DNA of 64,000 bases from Epilithonimonas zeae (GTDB lineage: Bacteria; Bacteroidota; Bacteroidia; Flavobacteriales; Weeksellaceae), in NCBI RefSeq assembly GCF_900141765.1, contig NZ_FSRK01000001.1, forward strand, positions 682,001 to 746,000, written 5' to 3'. The notes beneath the pieces were generated by a model. It was not told where the DNA came from. It saw only the letters and a program-made list of their open reading frames with translations, and did no database searches. The translations under genes were made by a program, and so were the position numbers. Below, piece by piece: positions 14,379-40,705 of the stretch (position 1 is the stretch's first letter; each line of letters opens with the position of its first letter).

Positions 14379-15215
14379 TTATTTTAATTCGTCAGTTTTT
14401 ACAGCATCCATATCGCCGTAGTCCATATTTTCTCCTGCCATTCCCCAAATAAAGGTATAGTTGGAAGTTCCAACGCCAGAGTGAATAGACCATTCCGGAG
14501 AAATGACTGCATCTCGATTTTTAAGAAAAATATGTCTCGTTTCCTGAGGTTGTCCCATAAAATGTGAAATCGATTGGCCTTCTTCCAAATCGAAGTAGAA
14601 ATAAGCTTCCATTCTTCTGGTGTGCGTGTGAGAAGGCATTGTATTCCAAACACTTCCTTCGTGCAGTTCGGTCATTCCCATTTGTAATTGGCAAGTTTCC
14701 AGAACACTGTTTACCAATAATTTATTGATGGTTCTTCTGTTCGCATATTTGGAATCTCCTAATTCTACGATTTCAGCTTCATTTTTTGTAATCTTTTTTG
14801 TTGGGTAAGAATGATGAGCTGGTGCAGAGTTGATGTAGAAATAAGCTTGTTCACCATCAACGCTTTCAAAAGTTACGTCTTTGTTTCCTTTTCCTATATA
14901 TAATGCTTCCTTATTATTAAGTTCGTAAACTGTTCCGTCAACTGTTACTTTTCCTTTTCCACCAACGTTGATGATTCCGATTTCTCTTCTGTCAAGGAAG
15001 TTTTCGGATTTCAGTTCATCAATTGTTTCAAGCTTTAAAGCTTTGTCAGTTGGCATTGCTCCACCAACAATTAATCTATCATACATTGTATAGATTAATT
15101 TGATTTGTCCGTCTTGGAATAAATTGTTAATTAGGAATTCTCTTCTAAGATCTTCTGTTGTGTATTTTTTTGCATCATCCGGATGATGAGCGTATCTGAA
15201 CTCTGAAGTTGTCAT
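14379..15215 (-). CDS. kduI: 5-dehydro-4-deoxy-D-glucuronate isomerase
   Basis: 278 residues, bicupin fold. It isomerises 5-keto-4-deoxyuronate to 2,5-diketo-3-deoxygluconate. The start TTSEFRYAHHPDDAKKYTTE is highly characteristic. The zinc-site region WNTMPSHTHTRRMEAYFYFD (residues ~190-209) shows His-X-His and Glu ligands, and the last ligand His lies in SPEWSIHSGVGTSNYTFIWG. Length equals the usual 278. First gene of the leftward operon, with an operator palindrome 37 bases upstream of its ATG. Confidence 0.97.
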   Translation of the reverse strand: MTTSEFRYAHHPDDAKKYTTEDLRREFLINNLFQDGQIKLIYTMYDRLIVGGAMPTDKALKLETIDELKSENFLDRREIGIINVGGKGKVTVDGTVYELNNKEALYIGKGNKDVTFESVDGEQAYFYINSAPAHHSYPTKKITKNEAEIVELGDSKYANRRTINKLLVNSVLETCQLQMGMTELHEGSVWNTMPSHTHTRRMEAYFYFDLEEGQSISHFMGQPQETRHIFLKNRDAVISPEWSIHSGVGTSNYTFIWGMAGENMDYGDMDAVKTDELK

Positions 15216-15251: not shown

Positions 15252-15265
15252 TGTAATCGATTGCA
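15252..15265. promoter_or_regulatory. Operator palindrome upstream of kduI
   Basis: TGTAATCGATTGCA, one mismatch from the perfect palindrome TGCAATCGATTGCA, with the central CG typical of LacI-family operators. It lies 37 bases upstream of the kduI start codon, where a bound repressor would block the operon. The likely binder is the LacI-type protein encoded at 39674-40705. Confidence 0.75.
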
Positions 15266-15922: not shown

Positions 15923-15936
15923 TGCAATCGATTGCA
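15923..15936. promoter_or_regulatory. Operator palindrome upstream of susC
   Basis: TGCAATCGATTGCA is a perfect 14-bp palindrome and the best example of the site in the window. It lies 71 bases upstream of the susC start and downstream of the predicted promoter, a position suited to repression. Confidence 0.8.
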
Positions 15937-21380: not shown

Positions 21381-23945
21381 ATGAATAAACTGAAACTACT
21401 TTATGTATTCTTTTTACTTGCATTTATGCAGGTATCAGGACAGTCTGTTACGTTCAACGAATCAGCAGGCTGGATAGAAACTGCCTTTGTAAAATGGCAA
21501 CCGGTGGAAAATGCCGGAAGATATAATGTTTACTATTCCGGAGAAGGTGTGGTAAACAAGCAGGTCGATGATTATTTGATTCGTAGCTACGGATCATATC
21601 TGAGAGCTGATGTTTTGGGATTAAAAGCAGGAAACTATACAATTACTGTTAAGCCTGTGATTCTGGGAATCGAAGGTTCTGGCTCTACAACTGGTACTTT
21701 GACCGTTTTATCCCAGGACAGAAATGGTTTTGCTTTCCACGGTGGAAGAGTTCCAGGAGGATACAAAGCTGACGGAACACCAAAAGATAATGCAGTCATT
21801 CTTTACATCACTGAAAAAAGTAAAAACACCATTTCTTTCAATGTAATTACGAATAACAACGGAAATACAACTAATTATGTTGGCTTCCAGAATATCTTTT
21901 CCGGAATCAAAAAAGGAATTGATAAGAGACCATATATTTTCAGACTGGTAGGTAATATCACAGATTTTACCGATATGGAAGGTGGAGATCTTGTGGTTGA
22001 AAATAAGAATAACGATTTAAGTTATATCACTGTAGAAGGTGTTGGGGACGATGCAACAGCCAACGGTTGGGGAATTCGTGTTAAGAATGCAACCAATATT
22101 GAGATTGCCAATCTTGGATTTATGAATTGTGACAGCAGCGAAGGTGATAATATTGGGATGCAGCAAAACAATTCTTACATCTGGGTTCATAACAACGATT
22201 TGTTCTACGGACACGCAGGTAGCGACGCAGATCAGATCAAAGGAGATGGCGCATTGGATAACAAAGGGACATCTTATGCAACGTATTCTTACAACCACTT
22301 CTGGGATTCTGGAAAAGCAAGTTTATTAGGCCTAAGTGAAAATACAACTGCTGGTTTGTACGTGACTTACCACCACAATTGGTTTGATCATTCAGATTCC
22401 AGACATCCAAGGGTTCGTTATTATTCAGCTCATATTTATAACAATTATTTTGACGGAATTGCTAAATATGGTTCTGGCTCTACAGAAGGTTCATCTTTAT
22501 TTTTAGAAGGAAACTATTTCCGCAATGCAAAAAATCCAATGATGATCTCGCTTCAGGGAACAGATGTTTGGAATCCTTCAAAACAAATGAATGATCCAAC
22601 TAATCAGGGAACTTTCTCCGGCGAAGATGGAGGTATGATTAAGGCTTTTAATAACTTGATGGACGCTGATATTGCAACCAATTCTATGCGTTTTGTAGCT
22701 TATGCAGACCCTAATCCTTTATATAATATCGAAGGGAAAATCAGTTCATTGACAGATTTTGATGCTTACTTAGCAGCAACTCGTGGCGAAACTGTTCCGG
22801 CAACTGTGAAGTCGAAAGTGGGTGCAAAAACCTATAATAACTTTGATACAGATGCTTCGCTTTACGTGAAAAATTTATCAATTGAAGAACCAACTGTAGC
22901 GAGAGACAAAACTAAACTTTATGCTGGACGTGTCCAAGGTGGCGATTTCAAATGGACTTTCGACAACGCTGTGGATGACAAATCGTACGCTGTAATTACA
23001 GGTCTTAAATCTGCGTTGACCAACTATGGGACTTCTATGGTTTATATTCAGGCAGAAGGCAGTTCTCAGACTTTGGTTAATACTTCTGGAAACAAAGATC
23101 AAACGGTTGCTACAGGTGCGGCAGTTGCTCCAATTGTCTTCACTTGGGGTGGAGATGCGACAGATGTTACATTAACTGGTGTCACAAATGGTCTTACTTT
23201 CACAAAAGATACAATGGCAAAAACTGTTACAATTACTGGAACGCCAACTCAAAATACTTCTTACACGGTTACAACTGTTGGCACTTCAGGAACTTCAGCT
23301 TCTATCAGTGGAACAGTAACAGTTGGTACACCTGGAAATCCGGGATCAACAGATGGAATGATTCACAACTTCACAACATCTGGAAAAATAAGTACATTCT
23401 ATGCAATTACAGGTAATATGAACTCTACGGATGGTTCTCAGTCTTACGACGGATTAACGTTGACAAAACGTTTCAAAATGGAATCTTCTACAAGCATCAA
23501 ATACACTACAACAGCAGAATCTACATTAACTTTGGTTTTCGATGCTGATTTTGCTAAAGTGGTTAAGTTTGATGGCGTGAATTATACAGCAAACAACGGT
23601 ATTGTTACAATTCCTAATGTTGCAGCTGGAGAACACACGATTACAAAAGGAGATACAACCAACTTGTACTATATCAAGACGGTTTATTCAACAATGGCAA
23701 CATCCGATATTAACAAAGCCCAGGTCACTTTATATCCAAATCCGGTATCAGATCATTTATATATCAACACCGCTGGACAAAAAGTTCTGAGCGTTAAAGT
23801 TTACAATTTTGCAGGTGCTTTGGTTAAGAACATTTTTGATGCAAAAGCGGATTCAGTTGACTTGAGAAACCTTGTATCAGGTAATTATATCATCAGCATC
23901 ACAACTGATAAAGGAACAATTACCAAAAAGATTATCAAAAAATAA
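21381..23945 (+). CDS. Pectate lyase, PL1 family, multidomain, T9SS-exported
   Basis: 854 residues. It cleaves polygalacturonate by beta-elimination outside the cell. Order: signal peptide (ends MQVSGQS), fibronectin-like segment (~25-110), PL1 parallel beta-helix (~115-480) with IWVHNNDLFYGHAGSDADQI and YHHNWFDHSDSRHPRVRYYS (Arg of the active site in RHPRVR), an Ig-like segment (~575-650), a beta-rich module (~660-775) with KRFKMESSTSIKYTTTAEST and a GDTTNLYYIKTVY end, then a T9SS type A domain (LYPNPVSDHLYIN). The beta-rich module resembles the small proteins at 33263 and 34520. It is 247 bases after susD. Confidence 0.93.
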   Translation: MNKLKLLYVFFLLAFMQVSGQSVTFNESAGWIETAFVKWQPVENAGRYNVYYSGEGVVNKQVDDYLIRSYGSYLRADVLGLKAGNYTITVKPVILGIEGSGSTTGTLTVLSQDRNGFAFHGGRVPGGYKADGTPKDNAVILYITEKSKNTISFNVITNNNGNTTNYVGFQNIFSGIKKGIDKRPYIFRLVGNITDFTDMEGGDLVVENKNNDLSYITVEGVGDDATANGWGIRVKNATNIEIANLGFMNCDSSEGDNIGMQQNNSYIWVHNNDLFYGHAGSDADQIKGDGALDNKGTSYATYSYNHFWDSGKASLLGLSENTTAGLYVTYHHNWFDHSDSRHPRVRYYSAHIYNNYFDGIAKYGSGSTEGSSLFLEGNYFRNAKNPMMISLQGTDVWNPSKQMNDPTNQGTFSGEDGGMIKAFNNLMDADIATNSMRFVAYADPNPLYNIEGKISSLTDFDAYLAATRGETVPATVKSKVGAKTYNNFDTDASLYVKNLSIEEPTVARDKTKLYAGRVQGGDFKWTFDNAVDDKSYAVITGLKSALTNYGTSMVYIQAEGSSQTLVNTSGNKDQTVATGAAVAPIVFTWGGDATDVTLTGVTNGLTFTKDTMAKTVTITGTPTQNTSYTVTTVGTSGTSASISGTVTVGTPGNPGSTDGMIHNFTTSGKISTFYAITGNMNSTDGSQSYDGLTLTKRFKMESSTSIKYTTTAESTLTLVFDADFAKVVKFDGVNYTANNGIVTIPNVAAGEHTITKGDTTNLYYIKTVYSTMATSDINKAQVTLYPNPVSDHLYINTAGQKVLSVKVYNFAGALVKNIFDAKADSVDLRNLVSGNYIISITTDKGTITKKIIKK

Positions 23946-32980: not shown

Positions 32981-32994
32981 TGCAATCGATTGCT
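32981..32994. promoter_or_regulatory. Operator palindrome, distal site
   Basis: TGCAATCGATTGCT, one mismatch from the perfect palindrome. It lies 230 bases from the next operator; together they could allow DNA looping. Confidence 0.65.
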
Positions 32995-33154: not shown

Positions 33155-33184
33155 TTGGATGACATAGAAATAATTTTATATTAG
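33155..33184 (+). promoter_or_regulatory. Promoter of the first small T9SS protein gene
   Basis: TTG at 33155-33157, a 19-base spacer and TATATTAG at 33177-33184. The 25 bases at 33169-33193 recur without change at 34426-34450 upstream of the paralogue, which supports a functional promoter. Confidence 0.6.
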
Positions 33185-33210
33185 AACCGTCGATTAATTA
33201 TAATAAATAG

Positions 33211-33224
33211 TGTAATCGATTGCG
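33211..33224. promoter_or_regulatory. Operator palindrome at the first small T9SS protein gene
   Basis: TGTAATCGATTGCG lies 26 bases past the -7 box, exactly the same distance as at the paralogous promoter. It lies 38 bases before the ATG. Confidence 0.75.
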
Positions 33225-33262
33225 CAACTAAGATGAAACAAACAACTATAAACTCATTTATT

Positions 33263-34054
33263 ATGAAAAAACTATTATTTTCTTTAATGTTTGCGGGGAT
33301 TTCTGCAGTTACATTCAATGCTCAAAGTAAAACCTGGGACTTTAGTGATACTTCAAAATTTCCTGCTGGTGCCATTGCGACTGATAAAACTGTAGATGGT
33401 TTGTCCTTTGTTACAGGAGGCAGCAGCCTTACTATAGCGACTAACAGTCTTGCGACGTTTGACGACGGTTATGCTCCAACTCAACGTTTACAATTTGGCG
33501 GTAACAGTTATAGCGGTTCTACGAATCCTGCTGTAGGAACGACTTCTATGCCAACAAGAAGGTATTTGCAATTTGCTGTATCTAACAATGCTGTGATTAA
33601 GTTTTGGGCAAGAGGTGGAGGAGCTAACAGGTCAATTCTGATTTCGGACGAAACTGGAAAAGTGCTGAGTTCAACAACATTTGCGGGAAATACAACTGCT
33701 GATATAGCTATTGCGACTTACACTTATACAGGTGCTGCTGGAAACATCTTGATTACGACTGGAAGTGGTGATAATAGTTTGTACAAAATAGAATATACTG
33801 ATAATGCTACAATGGCTGTTGGTGATGTGAAGTCTAAAAATAAACTAAATGCCTTCTCTGCAGGAAACAAAATTTACATCAAAGATTTAGACGCTAAGAA
33901 TACTCAAATTAATGTGTATTCTGCTAATGGTACGTTGGTCAAATCTTTGAAAACGACTTTTGATACTGATTTTGTGATCGATACTAAAGGTGTTTATGTT
34001 GTAAATATGAAATCTGAGGCTGGAGTAAAATCTGTAAAGGTTATGATTAAATAA
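33263..34054 (+). CDS. Small T9SS-exported protein of unknown function, possible pectin-binding module
   Basis: 263 residues from the ATG at 33263, chosen over the upstream in-frame ATG (33233) because it opens the signal peptide (KKLLFSLMFAGISAVTFNAQ) and aligns with the start of the paralogue at 34520. A beta-rich domain of about 165 residues starts KTWDFSDTSKFPAG and holds PTRRYLQFAVSNNAVIKFWA and RSILISDETGKVL, and the C-terminal ~75 residues form a T9SS-type tail (KIYIKDLDAKNTQINVYSAN to KSVKVMIK). No catalytic motif is seen. Similar strand patterns occur in the pectate lyase at 21381, so a carbohydrate-binding role is inferred. Confidence 0.8.
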   Translation: MKKLLFSLMFAGISAVTFNAQSKTWDFSDTSKFPAGAIATDKTVDGLSFVTGGSSLTIATNSLATFDDGYAPTQRLQFGGNSYSGSTNPAVGTTSMPTRRYLQFAVSNNAVIKFWARGGGANRSILISDETGKVLSSTTFAGNTTADIAIATYTYTGAAGNILITTGSGDNSLYKIEYTDNATMAVGDVKSKNKLNAFSAGNKIYIKDLDAKNTQINVYSANGTLVKSLKTTFDTDFVIDTKGVYVVNMKSEAGVKSVKVMIK

Positions 34055-34098
34055 AAAGTTAAGTTATAAATATTTTTCATATTATTTTTTTAAGAAAG

Positions 34099-34127
34099 CC
34101 CTTGGAATCTTTATTCTAAGGGTTTTT
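34099..34127 (+). terminator. Terminator of the first small T9SS protein gene
   Basis: A 10-bp stem (CCCTTGGAAT / ATTCTAAGGG, one G-T pair) with loop CTTT, followed by five T residues; 45 bases after the stop codon. Confidence 0.8.
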
Positions 34128-34413
34128 GTTTGATTTCAAACGATTTAATATTAATATTTTTATTTGAAACAATGTAAGTCTGTTATTATGATATTGATAA
34201 TCGATTTTTTTTTAAAATTTAATTATTTCAAGAACTTGGCTATGTTTTTAGTTAAATTAAGACAACCGATTGCACAGATTTTAATTCAAAAAAATACTTT
34301 TTCAAGATTTTAATATCAAAATTTTCATTAATTATTTTATTCTAAAACTACTATTAATAAAGACTTTCTGTCTAGTGTTAAAGAAAATTAATATTAAATT
34401 AAAAAAAAATATC

Positions 34414-34441
34414 TTGGAATTGAATAATAATTTTATATTAG
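34414..34441 (+). promoter_or_regulatory. Promoter of the second small T9SS protein gene
   Basis: TTG at 34414-34416, a 17-base spacer and TATATTAG at 34434-34441. Shares 25 identical bases (34426-34450) with the first copy. Confidence 0.6.
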
Positions 34442-34467
34442 AACCGTCGAATTATTACAAATACTTG

Positions 34468-34481
34468 TGTAATCGATTGCA
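34468..34481. promoter_or_regulatory. Operator palindrome at the second small T9SS protein gene
   Basis: TGTAATCGATTGCA, identical to the kduI site, 26 bases past the -7 box and 38 bases before the ATG. Confidence 0.75.
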
Positions 34482-34519
34482 TTGAAAACTTAAACAAACA
34501 ATTAATAAATCATTTTATC

Positions 34520-35299
34520 ATGAAAAAATCATTACTTCTTTTAGCATTTGCAGTTGTTGCTACTGTAGGAAACGTAAAAGCACAAACTACTTGGGACTTT
34601 TCATCTGCTGCGTGGCCAATAATATCCGGTGAAACTGCAAAAGTGAAAAATAATCTGGCATTGGTTCCTGGACCAGAAACTGTTGTTAATTTTGGAGCTG
34701 TGGAAGCTAATACTGCTACTTTTTCAGATGGCTATTCTGCATCAAAACGTTTCAAACTGAATGGAGGAGGTTATACTTCAACAGGAGTTAACACAACACC
34801 TACACAACGTTACATATACTTTAAAGCAAATGGTAATTCATCCATTACTATCTGGTATAAAAACGGTGGCGCAGGAGATCGTACTTTATACATAGGTACA
34901 GGAACTGCTGTTTTAGCTTCTAAAACTTATTCTAATTCGCAAGATGGTATTATCTATACTTATGATTATGCTGGACCTGCAAGAGATATTTATATCTACG
35001 GAGATCAGTCTCTTAATATTTATAAAATTACAGCTACTAACGTTGGAAACACAGTTCTTGGTGTAAATGATGTGAAGAAAGATATGAAAGCTACAGTTTA
35101 CACCAATGGAAACAAAGTAGTAGTTTCTAATCTTGAGTCTAAAAATACAGAGGTTAATGTTTTCAATGCGAACGGATCTTTGGTAAAATCTATGACGACT
35201 TCTACTGATGCTAACTTTGAATTGAGTACTAAAGGTTTATATATCGTAAATCTTAAATCTCAGGCAGGTGAAAAGTCTGTGAAAGTTTTAATTAGATAA
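34520..35299 (+). CDS. Small T9SS-exported protein of unknown function, paralogue of the 33263 gene
   Basis: 259 residues: signal peptide (KKSLLLLAFAVVATVGNVKAQ), a beta-rich domain starting TTWDFSSAAWPI with DGYSASKRFKLNGGGYTS, PTQRYIYFKANGNSSITIWY and IYIYGDQSLNIYKITATN, and a T9SS-type C-terminal tail (KVVVSNLESKNTEVNVFNAN to EKSVKVLIR). The end of the beta-rich domain is close in pattern to the pectate lyase module ending GDTTNLYYIKTVY. It has its own promoter, operator and terminator, so it is a monocistronic unit. Tandem duplication of gene plus control region is clear; function is unknown, with ligand binding the best guess. Confidence 0.8.
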   Translation: MKKSLLLLAFAVVATVGNVKAQTTWDFSSAAWPIISGETAKVKNNLALVPGPETVVNFGAVEANTATFSDGYSASKRFKLNGGGYTSTGVNTTPTQRYIYFKANGNSSITIWYKNGGAGDRTLYIGTGTAVLASKTYSNSQDGIIYTYDYAGPARDIYIYGDQSLNIYKITATNVGNTVLGVNDVKKDMKATVYTNGNKVVVSNLESKNTEVNVFNANGSLVKSMTTSTDANFELSTKGLYIVNLKSQAGEKSVKVLIR

Positions 35300-35362
35300 G
35301 ACTATTTCTACAGCATATAGAGAATCAATAAAAATTTAACTGAATTAAATTTTTCATTAATT

Positions 35363-35400
35363 AAAGTTTGATGAAACCTGTTTTTATCAAACTTTTTTTT
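35363..35400 (+). terminator. Terminator of the second small T9SS protein gene
   Basis: A perfect 10-bp stem (AAAGTTTGAT 35363-35372 / ATCAAACTTT 35386-35395) followed by a run of T residues. Confidence 0.8.
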
Positions 35401-35504: not shown

Positions 35505-36812
35505 ATGAAAAGAATATTTTTAATACTCACATTTCTTACATCAGCTATTATTACCCATCTAAATGCACAATGTCCTGTTTCCGGTTGGGCTTCAACCAAT
35601 GGTGTTACAGGAGGCGGTTCAGCAACTCCTACTGTTGTTACGACTTATGCTGAGTTAAGAGCTGCTGTAAACAGCACATCGGTAAAAGTAATCCACGTTT
35701 CGGGGCAAATTACTTTTCCTGCTGCCGGACGTTTGACGTTGAATAATCAAACCAACAAATCCATTCTAGGTTTAGCCGGCGCTAGATTGATTTCTACAGA
35801 TCTTACGGCTGGCGGTTCAGGAATTCTGACCTTGAAAAGCAGTTCCAATATTTTGATAAAGAATATCACGTTTGAAGGTCCTGGTGCTTATGATGTAGAT
35901 GGAAATGATAATATGACCATTGATAACTGTACCAATGTTTGGGTGGACCATTGTACATTTCAGGATGCTTTGGATGGTAATCTTGATATCAAAAATGCTT
36001 CTGATCTGATCACTATAACCTGGACAAAATTTGAATATCTGAAAGCTCCGATTCCTGGCGGTTCTGGCGGAAGCAACGATCACCGTTTCTCTAATCTTTT
36101 TGGTTCCGGAGATGATGCGACTCAAGACGAAGGAAAATTGAGAATTACGATGCAATATTGTTGGTGGGCCAATGGTGTAAGAGAAAGAATGCCTAGAGTA
36201 CGTTACGGAAAAGTTCATCTTTTGAATAATTATTTTAATAGTTCTGTAAGTAATTACTGTATTTATGCAGGTTATAAAGCAGATTTGCTAATAGAAGGTA
36301 ATTATTTTGAGGGCGTGAAAAATCCAATCCGTTTAGAAACCGGGAATTTCACTGCAGCTCAATCTGTTGATAATACATTTGTCGGAACATCGGGAACAGC
36401 AGTAGGTTCAGGAACAGCTTTTACGCCGCCTTACTCGATTAACAAAATTGCATCTCAGGATGTAAAACAAACGGTAATGACTGGAGCAGGCGCAGTTTTG
36501 TTACAACCAACCGATTGTGTTTTTTTAGCTACTAACGAAATTAATTCCAAGTCAAAATCTGAATTTCTACTTTTCCCAAATCCGGCTTCGGAAGAGATTT
36601 CTTTAAAAGCTTTTTCTGAAAATAATCAGCTGGTAAAAATTAACGTGACAGATATTTCAGGAAAATCGGAAGGAACAATTTATCAGGGAAATATTAATAA
36701 AGGGAATAATACAATCCATTCAATTTCAATTAAAAAATTGAGTAAAGGTGTAAAACTTTTTGAAGTAAAAACTGATAAAGGTTCTTACACCCAAAAAGTG
36801 ATTGTAAAATAA
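35505..36812 (+). CDS. Pectate lyase, PL1 family, T9SS-exported
   Basis: 435 residues. Signal peptide ends ITHLNAQ. The beta-helix carries NVWVDHCTFQDALDGNLDIK (residues ~144-163, calcium-binding Asp residues), ITITWTKFEYLKAPI, NDHRFSNLFGSGDDA and RERMPRVRYGKVHLLNNYF (catalytic Arg, residues ~226-244). The last ~80 residues are a T9SS type A domain (LFPNPASEEISLKA to SYTQKVIVK). It is compact compared with the lyase at 21381 and lacks the extra module. 44 bases upstream of the large CE8 gene, probably one transcript. Confidence 0.93.
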   Translation: MKRIFLILTFLTSAIITHLNAQCPVSGWASTNGVTGGGSATPTVVTTYAELRAAVNSTSVKVIHVSGQITFPAAGRLTLNNQTNKSILGLAGARLISTDLTAGGSGILTLKSSSNILIKNITFEGPGAYDVDGNDNMTIDNCTNVWVDHCTFQDALDGNLDIKNASDLITITWTKFEYLKAPIPGGSGGSNDHRFSNLFGSGDDATQDEGKLRITMQYCWWANGVRERMPRVRYGKVHLLNNYFNSSVSNYCIYAGYKADLLIEGNYFEGVKNPIRLETGNFTAAQSVDNTFVGTSGTAVGSGTAFTPPYSINKIASQDVKQTVMTGAGAVLLQPTDCVFLATNEINSKSKSEFLLFPNPASEEISLKAFSENNQLVKINVTDISGKSEGTIYQGNINKGNNTIHSISIKKLSKGVKLFEVKTDKGSYTQKVIVK

Positions 36813-36856: not shown

Positions 36857-39493
36857 ATGAAAAAAAGTCTAATTTTGCCAATTGTGCTGTTCAGTACAGC
36901 TACGATTTTCGGAATCGGAAAGAGCATTTCTTTTTTCTCAGATTCTGTCTATAATGATTCAAAACCATCTTTTTCTTCAATAAAGGAAATTACGAATAAA
37001 ACAGAATCTTCAAAAAAATATTCAAGACTATTTGAAGCTACGCCAGCCTCTGTCAACTGGCCTTTGATTGCAGATGTTACAACAAAATCTTTAGAAGGTA
37101 ACCTGGAATCAGCAGTAAGTTATCCAACGACAATATTAAAAACAGAAGTCAATTCCAAAGTTGATTTTACAGGTGATGGAACAGCTGATAGTAATGTCGA
37201 TTTCTATCAATATACGGGAACCAATACCAATAGTTGGACGGGAACCGGAAGTACAGCGGTTGTGGATGAAACCAAATATGTTCAGTTTGAGGTTAACGCG
37301 ACTAATAGCGGCACTTTTACCATCAATAGAGTAGAAGCTCAGGTTGGAGCTGGTGGAACTAGTAATATGTATTATCAGGCATTTTATAGTTTGAATGCTG
37401 ATTTCTCGGACAGAGTTCAGATCAAAAGTGCGACTCAGTTAACACCTAGCGGAAAAGCGTTAACTCTGGATGTCACTCTAGCAACATCGGTTGTAATCTC
37501 TGGAAGTCAAAAATTTTATCTTAGATTCTATCCTTACATAGCTTCTGCAACTACAGGGAAACAATTTGCACTTAGAAATGTAAAAATATCCGGAACTATG
37601 GAAGGCTCTGTTGCTAATCCTGCGACAGTTTCTACAACAGCAATCTCATCTATTTCCACAACAACAGCGGTTACAGGAGGAACAATTTCCAGCAACGGCG
37701 GTGGTGCTATCACAGTAAGTGGTGTTGTTTACAGTACTAATGAAAATCCAACAATCGCAGATTCTAAAACGACTGAAAATGCGACTTCAGGCTCGTATGT
37801 AAGTAATTTATCAGGATTGTTACCGGCAACAACTTATTTTGTTAAGGCTTACTCAACCAATTCTGCAGGAACATCTTACGGAAGTCAGGTTAGTTTTACA
37901 ACATTAGCCAATATTATTGCACCGACAGTAACAACAACTTCTCAATCTCAGGTTACCAATAAGTCTTTTGTGGTTTCTGGAAACGTTACAGATTGGGGTG
38001 GTGCCAATGTAACAGAGAGAGGAATCGTTTATTCAACAGCGGAGAATCCAACAATTAATAATGCCACAAAAGTTTCTACAGGAACGGGTCTTGGCGCTTT
38101 TTCATCTTATGCTTATGGTGTGATGCCTTCTACATTATATTATGTTAGAACATTTGCAACCAATTCTGCTGGAACTTCTTATGGTTCTCAAGCTACCGTT
38201 AATACAAAAGCTACTGAACCAGATGTAATCAAAACAATTGCTAAAGACGGTTCTGGAGATTATACAACTGTACAGGCAGCTTTTGATGCAGTGCCGGATA
38301 ATTACACAGGAAGATGGATTCTTCATATCAAACCTGGAACTTACACAGAAAGACCGACGCTTTTAGCTAATAAGATTAATGTCTTTCTGGTTGGAGATAA
38401 TGCGGATACAACTGTTATTACCAATAATATTTCTGCTGGAGACATTAATCCTGATACAGGATCTGCTTACGGAACTTCTCTATCACAAACGATGGCGATT
38501 TTCGGAAGTGATTTTACAGCGTCCAAAATTACAGTTGCCAATACATTTGTCAATTCAACAGCTAATACTCAAATCAATTCATCTACTCAGGCTGTAGCGC
38601 TTAAAACACAGGGCGATCGTCAGGCTTTTTACGATTGTAAGATTTTAGGTTATCAGGATACATATCTAGGTAACAGTATTGGAAGAGCTTACTTTAAGAA
38701 TTGTTATATCGAAGGAAATGTGGATTTCATATTTGGACGCCAAACGGTTGTCTTTGACCATTGTACAACTTATATTAATCGTAACAATAGTGTTGTAACA
38801 GCACCTTCTACAGAAGCGACTACGAAATACGGATTTGTTTTTTTGGATTGTAATTTGACTGTACCAGCAGCCGGAACAACTGACTTTAATGGAACAGTAA
38901 TCAGCAATTTCCATTTTGGAAGAGCTTGGCAGAATACACCAAAATCAGCTTTCATCACATGTGAAACACCTTCTATGCTGAATGCAACAGGTTGGACAAC
39001 ACCAATTAATGGGGCGCTTCCAGTAACGTTTGTAGAATATGGAAATACCGGAGCTGGAGCGACGCCTGACAGATTAGCACAGAGAGCCAATGGTGGAGTA
39101 GTTTTAACGCCAACTGAATCTCAGGTTTACACTGTTTCTAACGTTTTCAAAAAAGATACAGATCCTTCATTCGTTTTCGATTGGATGCCGGAAGCTTCGG
39201 TTAATATAGACTTTGAAACTTTAGCAGTAAATGATATCAAAAACAGTAAGCTTTTGGTTTACCCAAATCCGTTTGCAGATCAGGTCACCATTGCATTTGA
39301 TTTGAAATCTAATTCTGACGTTAATATTAAAATTTATGATGTGAACGGAAGAGTTGTGAAAACAATCACAAGCAACGAAAAGAAAGGACTGAATAATTTG
39401 ACAATCGATACAAAAGATTTGAGAACCGGAATCTATTTTTACAATTTGAAAACCAATTCTGGAGAATCAACTGGTAAACTTATTAAAAAGTAA
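36857..39493 (+). CDS. Large multidomain pectin methylesterase, CE8, T9SS-exported
   Basis: 878 residues. Order: N-terminal signal or anchor segment (~1-30), a beta-rich domain (~70-250), two fibronectin-like repeats (~255-350 and ~355-450; both contain the STNSAGTSYGSQ/ATNSAGTSYGSQ ending), a CE8 beta-helix (~455-785) and a T9SS type A domain (VYPNPFADQVTIAFDL). Catalytic motifs QAVALKTQGDRQAFYDCKIL, GYQDTYLGN and CYIEGNVDFIFGRQ are intact, while the usual LGRPW appears as FGRAW (Arg kept, Pro lost). Probably cell-surface, acting on long methylated pectin before the lyases. Confidence 0.92.
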   Translation: MKKSLILPIVLFSTATIFGIGKSISFFSDSVYNDSKPSFSSIKEITNKTESSKKYSRLFEATPASVNWPLIADVTTKSLEGNLESAVSYPTTILKTEVNSKVDFTGDGTADSNVDFYQYTGTNTNSWTGTGSTAVVDETKYVQFEVNATNSGTFTINRVEAQVGAGGTSNMYYQAFYSLNADFSDRVQIKSATQLTPSGKALTLDVTLATSVVISGSQKFYLRFYPYIASATTGKQFALRNVKISGTMEGSVANPATVSTTAISSISTTTAVTGGTISSNGGGAITVSGVVYSTNENPTIADSKTTENATSGSYVSNLSGLLPATTYFVKAYSTNSAGTSYGSQVSFTTLANIIAPTVTTTSQSQVTNKSFVVSGNVTDWGGANVTERGIVYSTAENPTINNATKVSTGTGLGAFSSYAYGVMPSTLYYVRTFATNSAGTSYGSQATVNTKATEPDVIKTIAKDGSGDYTTVQAAFDAVPDNYTGRWILHIKPGTYTERPTLLANKINVFLVGDNADTTVITNNISAGDINPDTGSAYGTSLSQTMAIFGSDFTASKITVANTFVNSTANTQINSSTQAVALKTQGDRQAFYDCKILGYQDTYLGNSIGRAYFKNCYIEGNVDFIFGRQTVVFDHCTTYINRNNSVVTAPSTEATTKYGFVFLDCNLTVPAAGTTDFNGTVISNFHFGRAWQNTPKSAFITCETPSMLNATGWTTPINGALPVTFVEYGNTGAGATPDRLAQRANGGVVLTPTESQVYTVSNVFKKDTDPSFVFDWMPEASVNIDFETLAVNDIKNSKLLVYPNPFADQVTIAFDLKSNSDVNIKIYDVNGRVVKTITSNEKKGLNNLTIDTKDLRTGIYFYNLKTNSGESTGKLIKK

Positions 39494-39673: not shown

Positions 39674-40705
39674 ATGACCAAGAAAAACACGACGATATAT
39701 GACATTTCCAAAAAACTGAATGTAAGTGTAGCGACTGTTTCCAGAGCGCTAAACGACCATCCAAGAATTAGTCAGGAAACCAAGGAATTGGTCGCTGCTA
39801 CGGCTAAGGAAATGAATTATAAACAGAACAATTTGGCAAAAGCCCTGCAAAGTGGAGAGACCAAAACTGTGGGTGTGATTGTGCCTTATATCAATACCAA
39901 TTTTTTCTCATCCGTCATTAGAGGAATAGAGGAAGAACTGTCTCCTCACGGCTATCGTGTGATTATTTGTCAAAGTCACGATGATGCTGCAATAGAAAAG
40001 AAACAACTCAATACGTTGTTGCACACTCAGGTAGATTGTATTTTTATTTCGATATCAAGAAACACGACTGATATGGATTATGTAAGAAAAATCCTAAGCA
40101 CAACCAACACACCAATTATTCTTTTTGATAGAAAAAAAGATATCCCGGGCGTGAGTACAATCACGATTGATGACCACAAAGGCGCTTATCAGGCAACAGA
40201 ACATTTGATTAACCAAGGTTATAAAAACATTTGCCATTTTTCTGGAGATCAGAATCTGGAAATTTATCAAAACCGTTTGAATGGCTATATTGATGCTTTG
40301 AAAGATCATAATTTACCTATCCTTAAGGAAAATATTATCAATACAGGAAGTTCTATCGAGGAAGGAATCAGTGCTATGAAAAGTCTTTGGAAACGCAGAG
40401 TGAAACCGGATGCTATTTTCTCTGCCAGTGATTTTACAGCTTTAGGTGCATGCAAAGAAATCAAAAATCTTAAACTTAAAATCCCTCAGGATATTGGCGT
40501 AATTGGTTTCAGTAATGAGCCCTTTACTCAATTTATGGAGTTATCAATAAGCTCTGTTGACCAAACACCTGTTTTGATGGGGAAAATCTCAGGAAATGTT
40601 TTTCTGGAAAGTATCAGAGACAATTCTTCCGGAATCAGTATCGAGAAAAAATTGGTTTTGACACCAACGCTTCATATTAGACAATCGTCCAGCAGAAAAA
40701 AATAA
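39674..40705 (+). CDS. LacI-family transcriptional regulator of the pectin locus
   Basis: 343 residues. The N-terminal helix-turn-helix TTIYDISKKLNVSVATVSRA and hinge region NYKQNNLAKALQSGETKTVG (residues ~55-74) are standard LacI/GalR, followed by a periplasmic-binding-protein-like ligand domain (GVIVPYINTNFFSSVIRGIE to SSVDQTPVLMGKISG). It probably binds the TGYAATCGATTGCA palindromes in the locus and releases them when a uronate intermediate such as KDG is bound. The regulator-site link rests on location and on the LacI-type central CG of the site; the effector is unknown. Confidence 0.9.
   Translation: MTKKNTTIYDISKKLNVSVATVSRALNDHPRISQETKELVAATAKEMNYKQNNLAKALQSGETKTVGVIVPYINTNFFSSVIRGIEEELSPHGYRVIICQSHDDAAIEKKQLNTLLHTQVDCIFISISRNTTDMDYVRKILSTTNTPIILFDRKKDIPGVSTITIDDHKGAYQATEHLINQGYKNICHFSGDQNLEIYQNRLNGYIDALKDHNLPILKENIINTGSSIEEGISAMKSLWKRRVKPDAIFSASDFTALGACKEIKNLKLKIPQDIGVIGFSNEPFTQFMELSISSVDQTPVLMGKISGNVFLESIRDNSSGISIEKKLVLTPTLHIRQSSSRKK

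Follow-up and report, generated by a model that had tools for sequence, protein, structure and literature searches.

What role do two adjacent genes for small exported proteins play in a pectin locus, and how is their expression controlled? This question is raised by a stretch of 64,000 nucleotides from the genome of Epilithonimonas zeae (contig NZ_FSRK01000001.1, positions 682,001 to 746,000; subsequently referred to as the window), in which two neighboring genes, here called gene 1 and gene 2, share parts of their upstream regions and the overall design of their products. Our analysis indicates that both proteins are free-standing relatives of a pectinase binding module, exported by the type IX secretion system (T9SS), and that they are most likely pectin-binding surface proteins, the binding being predicted. 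We draw this relationship from a fold match to two solved structures, 8x8h and 8wc1, and from a family profile that finds both of them. We could also observe that each gene has a further operator-like site upstream, at a nearly fixed distance from the main operator. These sites are new with respect to an earlier reading of the same DNA (the original prediction), and their geometry is the more surprising part of our findings.

Fold and export of the two proteins

Gene 1 and gene 2 encode proteins of 263 and 259 aa that are 39% identical to each other (BLASTP E 1e-52). As had been proposed, they follow a common design, in which a signal peptide precedes a beta domain of ~160 residues and a T9SS type-A tail. 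By inspection, the signal is of the Sec type in both proteins. The type-A sorting domain TIGR04183 is recognized in both (28.1 and 30.4 bits, NCBIfam cut-off 23), and the Pfam model Por_Secre_tail stays slightly under its cut-off of 27 (23.5 and 24.5). The T9SS translocon is encoded in the genome (SprA, 2064 bits at a cut-off of 200). Both domains stand alone, without fusion to a pectinase.

Pfam and NCBIfam recognize only the T9SS tail in the two window proteins; the few other matches have E-values above 0.01 and amount to noise. For 42 relatives, the non-tail families among the Pfam matches listed (25 families) are weak and scattered: DUF6383 matches 13 of the 42 over the tail region, and the remaining ones have at most four members each, with a best E of 0.0048. 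A profile of the same 42 relatives gives 14 matches to PDB sequences at E 10 or better. The top match is 8wc1 ('Pectate lyase family 9', E 4.7e-5), followed by gingipain tails and by 8x8h ('Pectate disaccharide-lyase', E 0.0022). With a HMMER profile of the domain only, 8wc1 and 8x8h were found at E 0.0025 and 0.005.

The structural comparison singles out the same two entries. AlphaFold models of both proteins were built from 18 aligned sequences (mean pLDDT 82.2 for gene 1 and 76.0 for gene 2). The gene 1 model matches 8x8h with Z 20.7 (rmsd 2.1, 143 residues) and 8wc1 with Z 19.4 (rmsd 3.0, 145 residues); for the gene 2 model, the values are Z 20.8 (rmsd 1.8, 143 residues) and Z 19.8 (rmsd 2.7, 146 residues). 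The next-best chains reach Z 11.0 and 11.7, and no other row exceeds 11.7. Foldseek with the gene 2 model finds 8wc1 at E 1.8e-8 and 8x8h at E 9.8e-8; among the matches listed, beta-glucuronidases and others follow from E 3.7e-6, nearly all of them with a TM-score of 0.4 or less. Both PDB entries bear the title 'A carbohydrate binding domain of a putative pectate lyase'. The likeness thus extends over the whole domain (Z 19–21) and is accompanied by a significant profile match. However, the chains of 8x8h and 8wc1 are named as pectate lyase parts, whereas the window domains stand alone with a T9SS tail, at 16–23% identity. Other candidates for gene 2, an LD-transpeptidase (E 0.05 and above) and T-cell receptor chains, were gone once the family profile was used.

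A fragment of 8wc1 does not match any Pfam family. The claim that the pair belongs to no described family holds as far as Pfam and NCBIfam domain models are concerned, but not in view of the two solved relatives. The original prediction had also stated that it would be contradicted if the domain confidently matched an enzyme family or a carbohydrate-binding module family already known. The match to 8x8h and 8wc1 touches this point, and it supports the proposed function. A literature search with narrow combined terms returned no paper on 8x8h, 8wc1 or this protein family, and none for CBM77 combined with pectin and lysine; PMC6247017 deals with other species.

Membership in CBM77 is not supported. 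A search down to E 10 gives no PF18283 match for either window protein, the profile-profile probability is 13%, and the list of 25 families for the 42 relatives does not include PF18283. CBM77 is a pectin-binding module, and its structure 5fu5 ranks third and fifth (Z 11.7 and 10.9), level with other beta-sandwich chains. It is a distant structural neighbor that has a short TKRxK motif in common with the window domains and occurs in a PL1 lyase of the same locus; its domain is shorter than those of the pair.

Control regions and a second operator-like site

Upstream of both genes, an identical 25-base block and an identical promoter-operator spacing had been predicted, and both could be confirmed. 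The block AATAATTTTATATTAGAACCGTCGA is found exactly in front of each gene. In the two window genes, to which the first figure is limited, its start lies 43 bp from the main operator GTAATCGATTGC, and the operator lies 51 bp from the ATG. There are no further matches to AATAATTTTATATTAGAACCGTCGA in the window at up to three mismatches and none in 100 shuffles; a 23-base core has no further occurrence in the whole 4.08 Mb genome, again with up to three mismatches allowed. In the copies of related species, all 13 gene-2 regions and 10 of 13 gene-1 regions have an exact 19-base core, and the full block is exact in 4 of 13 and 8 of 13, respectively. Since the core is conserved across related species, the block is, judging from the sequence, a conserved control element rather than the mark of a recent duplication. 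It contains TATATTAG, a 7/8 match to the Bacteroidetes -7 box TAnnTTTG, and from this match we infer a promoter element.

An operator-like site is present upstream of all 50 copies tested. The 26 same-genus copies have exactly GTAATCGATTGC, 44–51 bp before the ATG. The 24 copies outside the genus have such a site within 120 bp, according to a pattern that was defined after inspecting those sites and that includes one weaker form added for L034. TAnnTTTG is found in the same stretch in 18 of these 24 copies, and in the sequences inspected it usually stands directly before the operator.

Further upstream, each gene has a second site (GCAATCGATTGC for gene 1, ACAACCGATTGC for gene 2). We examined the two-site geometry in 13 species (the window; L005–L013, L016, L017 and L070), which are related and not independent, L013 being a very near relative. 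The distance between the two sites of gene 2 is 207 bp in 12 species and 206 bp in one. For gene 1 it is 229–232 bp in 12 of the 13, and L006 has no upstream site. The upstream sites match the operator consensus at at least 10 of 12 positions. Sites of this quality are rare in the window (about 0.2 per kb), so that chance is an improbable explanation for their repeated occurrence at one distance; sites scoring 9 exist at other upstream distances in three gene-1 regions and one gene-2 region. The auxiliary site of gene 2 reads AACCGATTGC in 10 of the 13 species, AATCGATTGC in two and AAACGATTGC in one. This recurring deviation from the main operator, a single base, gives the impression that a weaker site is being retained deliberately.

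The fixed two-site geometry suggests repressor looping. In nine of the species, the gene-2 distance of 207 bp is equal in 36 of 36 pairs, whereas the neighboring gap between the gene-1 stop and the gene-2 upstream site (128–240 bp) is equal in none of the 36. The median identity of the spacer is moderately above that of shuffled sequence (0.60 versus 0.53 for its distal part in gene 2, 0.63 versus 0.55 in gene 1), while its length is fixed. Length is thus held more strictly than sequence, as would be expected with a bridging protein; the two distances, 207 and 230 bp, are too few to judge helical phasing. It is quite possible, though somewhat less likely than not, that the fixed spacing has a different cause, with the upstream sites serving another factor or the whole stretch being conserved as one unit. 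This would fit with the constraint on part of the spacer that its above-shuffled identity implies, with the missing gene-1 site in L006, and with the copies outside the genus, where 16 of 18 scanned lack such a site in the 400 bp upstream (in the other two it lies at 226 and 278 bp). Against this stand the site distances, which stay constant next to a variable gap, and the fit of the upstream sites to the operator consensus.

The operator binder is presumed to be a LacI-family regulator (PF00356, PF00532), based on its linkage to the locus. Its homologues lie downstream in L005–L012, L070, L059, L060 and L066; no LacI homologue is found within the stretch in the other loci, except for a distant LacI-family protein in L057 and L058. 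Bacteroidota polysaccharide loci are usually described with regulators other than the LacI family. The arrangement resembles the lac and gal systems, where repression employs a main and an auxiliary operator, in that each promoter has a pair of operator-like sites with fixed spacing and the locus encodes a LacI-family regulator. It differs from them by its Bacteroidota host and by a LacI protein without obvious tetramerization tail, and binding and looping are here predictions.

The pattern GYAATCGATTGC occurs at seven distinct places in the genome, five of them in the window; the reversed pattern occurs once. Far from the window, one site lies 40 bp before the gene of a RhaT-family rhamnose symporter, with a GH88 gene on its other side (L077:1501-1512; G000:C1:1233607), so the regulon probably extends past this locus. 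Another site, upstream of an enoyl-reductase gene, may be a chance occurrence.

Age, divergence and relatives of the pair

A tree built from 43 domains groups the 12 gene-2 copies in a single clade (100/99) and 10 of 12 gene-1 copies in a second one (100/100); it is midpoint-rooted and has long branches, with a flagged long-branch join of L010 with L012. These separate clades rule out a recent tandem duplication. The pair must be older than these species, and the shared block thus reflects conserved function, not a fresh copy. Position 1 in L011 (6001-6816) and L070 (9430-10236) is occupied by a copy from outside the main gene-1 clade, with main and auxiliary operators kept: the slot is conserved while the coding sequence differs. 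A second genus has a tandem pair of its own, with copies in two separate clades (sA, sB). Tandem pairs may therefore have arisen more than once, but this is not firm. No third copy was found in the window's own genome in a genome-wide search at E 10 or better.

Divergence is faster in gene 1 than in gene 2. Between paralogues, the domains are strongly different (identity 0.30–0.54 in 11 species), and the tail is more similar than the domain in 11 of 11 species compared (0.51 versus 0.40 in the window); L013 and L016 of the 13 species were left out here. Gene 2 ranks first in codon adaptation among 46 hand-picked window genes (0.706; window median 0.59, reference median 0.751), the reference being one 19-kb ribosomal region with 26 frames, at least two of which are probably not ribosomal. 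That the genes are monocistronic, as originally suggested, is plausible; a terminator-like hairpin follows gene 1, yet shuffled sequence contains nearly as many such matches.

A single-sequence search gave matches in 25 of 296 family genomes and 6 of 395 phylum genomes (own genome included), and a profile search raised the latter to 7 of 395. Twelve same-genus genomes, the window's included, have two copies each; the 11 other same-genus genomes listed have none. The open frames of these matches are short (258–322 aa for 37 single-sequence matches, 248–298 aa for 9 profile matches). We surveyed the neighborhoods of 26 loci, leaving out the non-genus genome G085 and the remaining same-genus genomes. 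A homologue of PL1 or of PL1-CBM77, by similarity to the window's own proteins, lies within the stretch in 24 of them, and the 25th, L057, has a pectinesterase and a PL9-like helix. L057 and L058 come from another family of the same order; their distant copies lie in other SusD-bearing loci with DUF5123 proteins and a different LacI-family regulator, and L057 also has a pfkB-type kinase.

The assumption that the domain is never fused to an enzyme was overturned. A weak match (whole-protein E 3.5) in a 1113-aa protein proved to lie in a pectinesterase, as the L061 long protein is identified by Pfam. This protein (L061:12052-15390), a second one (L062:11837-15151) and six similar long pectinesterases beside relatives carry a distant homologue of the domain near the N-terminus, in a 'VWDFGG' region that is fused to the pectinesterase, unlike the pair. 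Eight aligned N-termini matched the domain with a profile-profile probability of 91% (E 1.1e-6, single comparison). The best hmmsearch value for these N-termini, 3.7e-7, comes from a set of 11 proteins hand-picked after the weak match had been noticed, 9 of which are long pectinesterase-type neighbors, so that the E-values are flattering. The free proteins may derive from the pectinesterase-fused version or be sister to it.

Function in the pectin locus

The nearest named relatives of the genome are Epilithonimonas and Chryseobacterium. The locus around the pair encodes a KduI/IolB-family protein, a short-chain dehydrogenase, UxaC, SusC, SusD, a PL1 with CBM77, three pectinesterases, GH88, GH43, a GDSL esterase, GH28, an alpha/beta esterase, a further PL1 and the LacI-family regulator (Table 1).

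Table 1. Coordinates of the pair, its control sites and neighboring features in the window
Feature	Position	Strand	Remarks
Operator before KduI/IolB-family gene (14379-15215, minus strand)	15253..15264	.	probably same regulon
Operator before SusC-like gene (16008)	15924..15935	.	probably same regulon
PL1 pectate lyase with CBM77 and T9SS tail	21381..23945	+	
Auxiliary operator GCAATCGATTGC, gene 1	32982..32993	.	230 bp upstream of gene-1 main operator
25-base block AATAATTTTATATTAGAACCGTCGA, gene 1	33169..33193	+	exact match
Main operator GTAATCGATTGC, gene 1	33212..33223	+	
Gene 1	33263..34054	+	signal peptide, CBM-like beta domain (about 33326-33808), T9SS type-A tail (about 33818-34051)
Terminator-like hairpin 3' of gene 1	34094..34127	+	1 found versus 0.8 mean in shuffles
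Auxiliary operator-like site ACAACCGATTGC, gene 2	34262..34273	+	207 bp upstream of gene-2 main operator
25-base block AATAATTTTATATTAGAACCGTCGA, gene 2	34426..34450	+	exact match, same sequence as gene-1 block
Main operator GTAATCGATTGC, gene 2	34469..34480	+	
Gene 2	34520..35299	+	signal peptide, CBM-like beta domain (about 34583-35053), T9SS type-A tail (about 35072-35296)
PL1 pectate lyase with T9SS tail	35505..36812	+	directly 3' of gene 2
Pectinesterase with T9SS tail	36857..39493	+	
LacI-family regulator, presumed operator binder	39674..40705	+	PF00356, PF00532; linkage

Architecture, fold match, locus context and the operator-like sites with their spacing were directly observed. Starting from these, we consider it probable that the genes encode a non-catalytic, stand-alone pectin-binding pair that is repressor-controlled, exported by the T9SS and holds homogalacturonan at or near the surface; ligand, surface location, repressor identity, looping and inducer are the deduced parts. 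The operator in each promoter region would be occupied by a repressor, for which the LacI-family protein at 39674 is the most likely candidate, and this repressor would probably bridge to the second site 207 or 230 bp upstream. Once pectin breakdown products appear, repression would be lifted, and the proteins would be exported via the Sec pathway and then the T9SS. Their beta-sandwich, a module of the type found elsewhere in pectate lyases, would bind homogalacturonan on the cell surface or close to it, next to the PL1 lyases and the pectinesterase that the T9SS exports and to the SusC/SusD importer. Gene 2 would be the conserved, codon-optimized copy, while the fast-evolving gene in position 1 may have shifted to another pectin form. 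The original proposal of pectin-binding surface proteins thus finds good, if indirect, support in the structural and profile match, the T9SS tail, the pectin locus and the shared operator.

It is possible, but in our view unlikely, that the proteins bind another ligand instead, be it side chains of rhamnogalacturonan, a wall polymer of a different kind or the surface glycan of the cell itself, and that their role is adhesion to plant material rather than pectin capture. The beta-sandwich fold is shared at Z of about 10–11 with xylan-, xyloglucan-, galactan- and porphyran-binding modules, the locus includes GH43 and the GDSL esterase, and the operator recurs before the rhamnose symporter gene; the strong difference between paralogous domains would fit as well. 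However, the two best structural matches, about 8–10 Z above the rest, are pectate lyase domains, and the PL1 homologues beside relatives in 24 of the 26 loci point to pectin. It seems even less plausible, to the point of being very improbable, that the pair represents small enzymes, such as a new beta-sandwich lyase or esterase. The arginines at positions 77, 97 and 121 of gene 2 are invariant or nearly so in the 42 relatives and are also present in the HMMER alignments to 8wc1 and 8x8h. These structures are, however, titled as carbohydrate binding domains, and the window proteins match no Pfam enzyme family at E 10 or better. Among the matches listed for the 42 relatives, no enzyme-related one does better than a hyaluronate-lyase N-terminal sheet (E 0.07), with a peptidase next (E 0.095). 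In addition, lyases, hydrolases and esterases are already present in the locus.

Several observations weigh against a pectin-binding, repressor-controlled pair. The title of 8x8h and 8wc1 says 'putative', and the identity over the structural match is just 16–23%. Single-sequence searches are weak: gene 1 finds 8x8h at E 0.99, and gene 2 finds neither structure. The conserved arginines could have a structural role. In L058, the 26th locus, the scan of its proteins identified SusC/SusD, DUF4957 and DUF5123 proteins but no recognized pectinase. The LacI protein is connected to the operators by linkage only, and it ends without a long C-terminal extension; E. coli LacI bridges sites as a tetramer, so bridging of that type is not evident here. 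Finally, gene 1 has ordinary codon usage (0.596, rank 20 of 46), and the high output originally suggested for both genes is thus supported for gene 2 only.

Among known systems, the predicted pectin-binding pair is reminiscent of SusE and SusF, the surface glycan-binding proteins of polysaccharide utilization loci. Like these, the two proteins are stand-alone and encoded next to SusC/SusD, and they appear to be non-catalytic and co-regulated. Unlike these, they have a T9SS type-A tail and a single module, and no lipoprotein signal was seen.

More tentatively, and rather as a possibility than as an expectation, the pair may stand for a free-standing T9SS-exported pectin-binding family without Pfam model that flavobacteria use beside enzyme-fused versions and that is controlled, in one genus, by a looped LacI switch with operators 207 and 230 bp apart, serving a polysaccharide utilization locus of Bacteroidota. 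The analysis provides a testable function for proteins in which Pfam and NCBIfam recognize only the T9SS tail, and which are found in pectin loci both of Weeksellaceae and of another family in the order. A pectinase binding module would also exist as a free secreted protein, and owing to the conserved two-site geometry, looped repression can be tested directly in Bacteroidota.

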